Positions 7,359 through 9,301 of a DNA stretch of 62,498 nt are shown here, one piece after another. The notes beneath the pieces were generated by a model, which worked only from the letters and a program-made list of their open reading frames with translations, did not search any database and was not told the origin of the DNA. Numbering within the stretch: position 1 is the first letter of the stretch; the number at the start of each line of letters is the position of its first letter. Source of the DNA: Candidatus Zixiibacteriota bacterium (GTDB taxonomy: Bacteria > Zixibacteria > MSB-5A5 > GN15 > JAAZOE01); contig JAZGGI010000031.1 in assembly GCA_036480375.1 (NCBI GenBank), positions 1-62,498 on the forward strand. The letters run 5' to 3'. The translations under genes were made by a program, and so were the position numbers.

Positions 7359-8552
7359 TTATGCTAATGCCTTAACTTTTTTACGACCGTTGGGAACTTT
7401 CTTCTTAGTCGTTTTCTTTGCGGTCCCGGCTTTCAACGTAATTTTACGCGAAGATTTTTCGTTTGATGATTTCTGTCCGTACTTGCGGATAAATTCCTCA
7501 ACCATCTCACGCGCTTCATCATCAGTGTATTGTACCGGAGGCGATTTTTTGAAATATGCCGACGGCGCCAAAAGAGCTCCCTTGAGACCGTTATCAAGAC
7601 CCAGCTTGCAGCAGCGCACAGCGTCAATAACCACGCCCGCCGAATTAGGGCTGTCCCAGACTTCCATTTTAAATTCGATGTTAAGAGGTACATTACCAAA
7701 TGTCGTACCCTCCATACGAATATAAGCCCATTTTCTATCATCCAGCCATTCGACATAATCAGACGGGCCAATATGAATATTCCTGGAGCCGATATCATAA
7801 TCAAGCTGACTGGTTACCGCGTTGGTCTTGGAAATTTTCTTGGATTCCAAACGCTCACGCTCAAGCATATTCAAAAAGTCAGTATTACCGCCGACATTGA
7901 GCTGGCTGGTTCGCTCAAGCTTAACACCGCGATCCTGAAAAAGACGGGTCAGAATACGATGAGTAATAGTCGCTCCAACCTGCGATTTGATATCATCTCC
8001 GATTACCGGCAAGTCTTTTTCCTCAAAACGCTTCTGCCAATATCGTTCCCGAGCGATAAAGACCGGGATGCAATTTACGAAGCCGCATCCGGCTTCAAGA
8101 ATCTGCTCCACATACCATTTGGTGGCGTGTTCGGAGCCGACCGGCAAATAGCTGACAACCACATCGGTTTTAGTATCCTTCAAAAGCTTGACAATGTCCG
8201 CCGTATCACCGGGAGCTTTCTGGATAATCTGGCTGAGATATTTCCCCAGACCGTCGTGAGTCATGCCGCGCTGAACTTTGATGCCCATTTTGGGGACATC
8301 ACAAAATTTATAGGTATTATTCGGCTTGGTATAAATCGCTTCCGACAAATCCTTGCCGACTTTGTTAACGTCGATATCAATCGCCGCCGAAAACTCAACA
8401 TCCGAAATATGATAACCGCCCAGATTGACATGCATCAATCCCGGGACAAAATCGTTAACCTTGGCTTTTTGATAGAAGTGCACTCCCTGCACAAATGATG
8501 AGGCGCAATTACCCACACCAATAATAGCGACTCGTACTTTCTTACTGCCCAT
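7359..8552 (-). CDS. ino1: Inositol-3-phosphate synthase with lysine-rich tail
   Basis: A 397-residue protein that isomerises glucose-6-phosphate to inositol-3-phosphate using NAD. Residues 5-13 ([14 protein letters not shown]) form the Rossmann dinucleotide site. [25 protein letters not shown] and [10 protein letters not shown] are conserved synthase blocks of the bacterial/archaeal short type. The last ~38 residues are unusual: very rich in Lys, Ser and Thr, with no counterpart in the catalytic core. The start ATG has AAAGGAG upstream. A good promoter (TTGCAC-17-TATATT) precedes it, with a palindrome just upstream that is also found in the divergent marR promoter. No inositol phosphatase or transferase gene is nearby, so the end product is unknown. 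Confidence 0.93.
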
Positions 8553-8608
8553 TTATAGACTCCTTTATACTCTAAAGTTATTTGCTAAACCCTCAAACTT
8601 GCGTCGAG

Positions 8609-8637
8609 AATATACAAACATTCGCATAACAGTGCAA
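8609..8637 (-). promoter_or_regulatory. Predicted sigma-70 promoter of ino1
   Basis: On the minus strand, TTGCAC (8632-8637), a 17-base spacer and TATATT (8609-8614). The expected start is near 8602, giving a leader of about 50 bases before the ATG. Confidence 0.6.
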
Positions 8638-8658
8638 ATTTTTTATATATAAATATTA

Positions 8659-8672
8659 ATTGTATGTACAAT
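8659..8672. promoter_or_regulatory. Palindromic putative operator upstream of ino1
   Basis: ATTGTA-TG-TACAAT, perfect 6-base arms. It lies about 60-70 bases upstream of the predicted ino1 start. A close relative at 8839-8852 (11 of 14 bases equal) overlaps the marR promoter, so the MarR protein is the obvious candidate binder. Confidence 0.55.
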
Positions 8673-8827
8673 CATAACAGCATATTTTAAGCACTATGGT
8701 AGTCAATTCAAACAGGCAATTCATCCCATTTCGCCAAATATGAATTCATGTAATGCTATATATAGTTGTATCTTATGAAATTTCGTAACGAACATCCTGC
8801 CAATTAGACTCATGAATAACATTTCAA

Positions 8828-8856
8828 TTGACAATATCATTGTATATACATATATA
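8828..8856 (+). promoter_or_regulatory. Predicted sigma-70 promoter of marR
   Basis: Consensus TTGACA (8828-8833), a 17-base spacer and TATATA (8851-8856). The predicted start of transcription falls at about 8863-8864, exactly at the ATG, so the mRNA may be leaderless. Confidence 0.65.
8839..8852. promoter_or_regulatory. Palindromic putative operator inside the marR promoter
   Basis: ATTGTATATACATA, containing the perfect 10-bp palindrome TGTATATACA (8841-8850). It fills the spacer between -35 and -10, so binding would block RNA polymerase. It resembles the site at 8659-8672. Confidence 0.55.
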
Positions 8857-8863
8857 TTGCGAT

Positions 8864-9301
8864 ATGGAACAGTATATTGAAAACAAACTAATTGAAGGAC
8901 TAAATAAACTTTGGTCGGCTAAGCAAACAGCTCTCAGAAAATTACTTAAGCAGGCTGATAAAGAGCATCATCTCGGCGTTAATACTCCTGAGCAATTCGC
9001 TATCCTTAGCCGCCTGGCATCGATTGGTTATGGTGTCGCGGTCAAAGAAATCGCTCGGGAAACATTGCTTCCCCATGCTAACATTACCCGGACTCTGGAC
9101 CGGATGGCCGCCCGGGGCCTGATTCACCGCACGATGGACAAAACCGATAAACGGCGGATAATTATCAAGCTGACGCTGGAGGGGAAAAAGGCAGCCCGTC
9201 ATATAAAAGAGATAAATCAACAACTCATTGGCATCCTCTGGGGAAATCTCAGTGAAGATGAAAGAGCGTTACTGTTAACGCTATTATCAAAAATAGCCTA
9301 A
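8864..9301 (+). CDS. MarR-family transcriptional regulator
   Basis: A 145-residue winged-helix regulator starting at ATG 8864 (MEQYIENKL). The TTG at 8828 is rejected because it is part of the -35 box. The recognition helix region is LPHANITRTLDRMAARGLI and the wing is DKTDKRRIIIKLT, typical of MarR proteins that bind short palindromes as dimers and release on binding a small ligand. There is no Shine-Dalgarno sequence because the predicted transcript begins at or next to the ATG. Its promoter contains a palindrome shared with the ino1 upstream region, so autoregulation and control of inositol-phosphate synthesis are inferred. The gene converges on the FtsX permease gene. Confidence 0.9.
   Translation: MEQYIENKLIEGLNKLWSAKQTALRKLLKQADKEHHLGVNTPEQFAILSRLASIGYGVAVKEIARETLLPHANITRTLDRMAARGLIHRTMDKTDKRRIIIKLTLEGKKAARHIKEINQQLIGILWGNLSEDERALLLTLLSKIA

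Follow-up and report, generated by a model that had tools for sequence, protein, structure and literature searches.

Two conserved palindromes between divergent marR and ino1 genes point to direct MarR-type control of inositol synthesis in Candidatus Zixiibacteriota

The region between a MarR-family regulator gene (marR) and the divergent gene for inositol-3-phosphate synthase (ino1) in a Candidatus Zixiibacteriota genome carries two copies of one palindrome, and both copies are conserved beyond chance in relatives that share this gene pair. The DNA analysed (hereafter the window) comprises 62,498 nucleotides of contig JAZGGI010000031.1 (GenBank assembly GCA_036480375.1). Judging from gene order, promoter geometry and conservation, the MarR protein very probably controls inositol synthesis directly. 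On balance we favour a dedicated two-operator switch, in which a MarR dimer would repress its own gene and activate ino1 from about position -62, a ligand would shift its action, and DNA looping may take part.

Results

The marR-ino1 gene pair and its palindromes

In the window, ino1 and marR lie on opposite strands with 311 bp separating their start codons (Table 1). The ino1 product also matches TIGR03450 at 547 bits, which is under the model's cut-off of 638. The MarR protein scores above the curated Pfam cut-offs for both MarR_2 (49.8 bits, cut-off 27) and MarR (38.2 bits, cut-off 24.6), and its AlphaFold model (pLDDT 82.7) matches the PDB structures of MexR and E. coli MarR. By profile and fold it is thus an ordinary member of the MarR family; its Pfam matches comprise MarR and other winged-helix models, with LacI models absent. 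It reached the cut-off of none of the named NCBIfam MarR subfamilies (BilQ, HpaR, MarR, SlyA, OhrR, FabT and others), the top score being that for BilQ (45.8 bits against a cut-off of 125) and the others falling far lower than theirs. The first methionine of marR is common to seven orthologues. The next gene behind marR in the window is unrelated and convergent. In two relatives (G001 and G003) the gene behind marR, which has the same strand and comes after approximately 105-120 bp, reads by eye as a TonB-dependent receptor (L058 5459-7279; L060 7649-9502).

Table 1. Positions of genes, inferred promoters and candidate operators in the window
Feature	Position	Strand	Remarks
ino1, inositol-3-phosphate synthase, 397 aa	7359..8552	-	Pfam PF01658 (Inos-1-P_synth), E 6.3e-38
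ino1 promoter (inferred), TTGCAC-N17-TATATT	8609..8637	-	similar promoter at the same operator distance in 7/7 genomes
ino1-side operator (candidate), ATTGTATGTACAAT	8659..8672		centre ~-63 from the inferred ino1 start; counterpart in 6/6 relatives
DNA between ino1-side operator and marR promoter	8673..8827		length nearly constant among relatives, sequence unconserved
marR promoter, TTGACA-N17-TATATA	8828..8856	+	-35 at 8828-8833, -10 at 8851-8856; 17-bp spacer in 7/7 genomes
marR-side operator (candidate), ATTGTATATACATA	8839..8852		within the marR promoter spacer, touches the -10
marR, 145 aa	8864..9301	+	Pfam MarR_2, E 3.9e-13

The first-pass annotation had paired a MarR regulator with inositol-3-phosphate synthase, which the Pfam matches of both products confirm, and had described two palindromes that are identical at 11 of 14 positions and have centres 180 bp apart; these values, together with the coordinates and sequences, proved correct. 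The genome of the window (3.6 Mb) was searched with exact and one-mismatch patterns. Exact TTGTATRTACAW has two matches in the whole genome, both of them these operators, and one mismatch gives 77 matches versus 58 for a reversed-pattern control. A scan of the window alone with three mismatches was uninformative (40 matches, 49.5 expected). Among the one-mismatch places inspected in this genome, 13 of 15 fall within reading frames. Counts of exact copies at other places in the seven genomes of the family described below are at about the control level, revealing no wider regulon, and most of the additional copies inspected are again within reading frames. One exact copy in G001 is found shortly before a possible start codon of a glycosyltransferase-like gene (L103, near 4156), a single-genome case that may be due to chance.

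Conservation of the operators and of their spacing

The family of the window (f1) is represented by seven genomes from six genera, a small and related sample that includes the window's own genome; the named relatives are Candidatus Zixiibacteriota, and one is labelled as FCB group bacterium. A search of genome contigs with the single MarR sequence returned none, and a search with an alignment returned six, which are the known relatives. Their MarR proteins share 35-48% identity with that of the window. In all seven genomes marR is divergent from ino1 and both palindromes are present, with the core TGT-N4-ACA unchanged in each of the 14 sites. When scored with a matrix built from the other genomes (leave-one-genome-out), the two sites take the top two ranks of the intergenic region in every case (11.3-17.8 bits), and in 1000 dinucleotide shuffles per region there was none with a second-best site matching the real second site. 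With the same matrix, 24 regions upstream of ino1 in other families reached a top score of 8.2, as against at least 12.8 for the real sites. The whole-genome counts, leave-one-out scores and shuffles together rule out chance palindromes. Compensatory changes in the dyad were also considered: one candidate site was noted (G006, TGTCTAGACA), yet there is no overall excess of such changes because the core hardly varies.

The distance between the operator centres is nearly constant in this family (180, 178, 176, 177, 178, 179 and 179 bp; SD 1.3) and corresponds to approximately 17 helical turns. The intervening DNA lacks similarity in 19 of the 21 genome pairs (z < 2), the exceptions being G000-G003 (3.5) and G000-G005 (2.3). 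In the central part of the spacer nothing conserved rose above the shuffles, apart from the marR -35, and Rfam gave no matches in 8300-9100. As a yardstick, the interval between the ino1 stop and a conserved tmk position takes values of 74 to 113 across six of these seven genomes, and neutral drift simulated with assumed indel rates, which is illustrative only, produced an SD of 6-22 bp versus the observed 1.3.

Operator positions relative to the two promoters

Promoters and transcription starts were inferred from consensus hexamers. On the marR side, TTGAC(A/T) and the -10 are separated by a 17-bp spacer in each of the seven genomes, and the operator takes up this spacer, a position from which the MarR protein would repress its own gene. 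The marR ATG begins 5-8 nt past the -10 in each of them (8851-8866 in the window), and the marR mRNA is therefore probably leaderless.

On the ino1 side, the seven genomes have a promoter of the form TTGnnn-N16/17-TAtatT; in a mechanical scan it scored second in G002 and tied for first in G003, and in both it was picked by position. The operator centre is located 49-51 bp upstream of the inferred -10 in 7/7 genomes, which places it at about -61 to -63, and the operator stops approximately 20 bp short of the -35, clear of the promoter. This is a class I-type geometry, with an operator upstream of the -35 at a fixed helical position relative to the inferred ino1 promoter. Such positions are typical of class I activators, for example CRP at -61.5.

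The first-pass annotation had proposed that marR and ino1 share operators, through which the regulator would repress itself and affect ino1 from about -60, with activation also possible there, and had named conservation of both palindromes among relatives with the gene pair as a check. Both palindromes are kept in 6/6 such relatives, the inferred starts put the ino1 operator at about -62, and the fixed promoter position and near-constant spacing in seven genomes support the proposal.

A TetR-type regulator beside ino1 in sister families

In two sister families, f3 and f4, a TetR-type gene (TetR_N, E 2.8e-11) is divergent from ino1 in 13/14 and 42/47 of the genomes with ino1, respectively (L032, L036-L043, L045-L048, L051-L053, L055-L057 and L126-L163). 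The TetR-type protein had no match in f1 (0/7) or in family f2 (0/4), and in the f2 genomes inspected neither regulator adjoins ino1. Upstream of ino1, 52 of the 58 f3 and f4 genomes inspected contain a palindrome that departs from ATGACN6GTCAT at no more than one position. Measured from the ino1 -10, its centre mostly lies at 68-71 bp in f3 and at 67-68 or 78-81 bp in f4, the two f4 clusters being about one helical turn apart; relative to the ino1 start the operator lies at approximately -80 to -82 or -91. Thus, two unrelated predicted regulators, MarR and TetR-type, occupy one post beside ino1. The tetR promoter seems to be located between the TetR operator and the ino1 promoter, so packing could fix the TetR distances, which are consequently only supportive of the favoured explanation. 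The ino1 protein tree does not fix the branching order of f1-f4, so that the MarR/TetR exchange may have gone in either direction.

Discussion

Proposed mechanism and alternatives

We infer that a dimer of the MarR-family protein binds both copies of the palindrome, to which it is assigned by proximity. MarR bound at the marR-side site would shut its own promoter, and autorepression of the leaderless transcript would keep the MarR level low. At the ino1-side site, roughly 62 bp upstream of the start, it would touch RNA polymerase and activate ino1 in a class I manner. A ligand tied to inositol or its lipids would alter MarR binding, and a loop of 17 helical turns may bridge the two operators. 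It would be unusual for a MarR dimer to form such a loop, and a literature search of titles and abstracts gave no clear example.

For ino1, activation appears more likely than repression because the operator is clear of the promoter, its place resembles that of class I sites, and the LacI-type regulator IpsA follows the same logic. The counterpoint is that most studied MarR proteins are repressors. This would agree with MarR repressing both genes, its own promoter directly and ino1 either by means of the 17-turn loop or by blocking polymerase contacts upstream of the -35. Such a loop would need just what is observed, 176-180 bp or approximately 17 whole turns with unalignable DNA in between; however, the ino1-side operator ends about 20 bp ahead of the -35 in 7/7 genomes, and the single-operator TetR arrangement of the sister families lacks a second site for a loop. 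Both points speak against repression of both genes, which we regard as unlikely. If both sites served marR, with the distal one acting as an auxiliary operator or belonging to a second marR promoter, ino1 would be a bystander. Reading of the sequences showed, in G000 and G003, a weak pair of promoter-like elements directed towards marR that overlaps the distal site. No such pair was seen in the remaining five genomes, and the distal site keeps a fixed distance to the ino1 -10 (49-51 bp in 7/7), which makes autoregulation alone quite improbable.

The link by proximity also leaves room for another regulator that uses the palindromes to control both genes. Sites upstream of ino1 were found only in the family with this marR, though, one site is within the marR promoter itself, and exact copies elsewhere in the genomes remain near the control level, so this explanation is very improbable. 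The preferred two-operator switch can be extended to a dual MarR with a single target, which shuts down its own leaderless gene, activates ino1 from a site near -62 and has its operators 17 turns apart for bridging, and whose role the TetR-type protein takes in the sister families, control of ino1 having been rewired and the helically phased position kept. We offer this broader scheme tentatively and consider it rather doubtful as a whole.

Relation to known systems

Direct control of ino1 by a MarR protein was not found in the open-licence literature searched, and the initial caution that such control was not known to be established was about right, with the qualification that an indirect link exists: in Corynebacterium glutamicum the gene for the ino1 activator IpsA is repressed by the MarR-type MalR (PMC6536590, PMC3899939). 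MalR thus also ties a MarR-type protein to inositol synthesis, but indirectly, through repression of ipsA, and as part of a broad cell-envelope regulon. IpsA, the LacI-type regulator, responds to inositol and acts on ino1 of C. glutamicum as an activator, through sites upstream of the -35 (PMC3899939); its sites are upstream of the -35 at activated genes, ino1 included, and overlap the promoter at repressed genes (PMC3899939). IpsA of Corynebacterium and Mycobacterium resembles the proposed switch in controlling inositol phosphate synthase through a pair of palindromes in the region of the ino1 promoter, with the activating ones upstream of the -35, whereas it is an unrelated protein of the LacI family with several more targets in another phylum.

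Divergent autoregulated MarR switches (E. coli MarR, MexR, HosA, PcaV and others) share with this locus the MarR fold, palindromes (here candidate operators) between divergent genes and a palindrome placed over the regulator's own promoter. The differences here are the ino1 target, a second candidate operator that lies near -62 at the target promoter, the spacing of 176-180 bp in 7/7 genomes and probable activation. One activator of the MarR family, LdtR, is known (PMC5892913). The TetR-type regulator of the sister families likewise stands beside ino1 with a palindrome at a fixed distance upstream of its promoter, but it belongs to an unrelated family and has the single operator described above, farther from the start.

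IpsA of Corynebacteria and Mycobacteria was the only ino1 regulator met in the literature searched. If the proposed switch is true, it would be a second control dedicated to ino1, unrelated to the first and belonging to an uncultured group, and MarR and TetR-type proteins at one post in sister families would offer a natural test of regulator exchange with promoter geometry kept. Inositol lipids are described as relatively rare in bacteria (PMC9246714). The ino1 gene is widespread in the group, being present in 125 of the 146 relatives searched. In many other families of the class it lies on the same strand behind a gene for a PfkB-like kinase or a CDP-alcohol phosphatidyltransferase (L049, L050, L054 and L110-L125), a neighbourhood that suggests an inositol-lipid operon and would fit a role of ino1 in inositol lipids.
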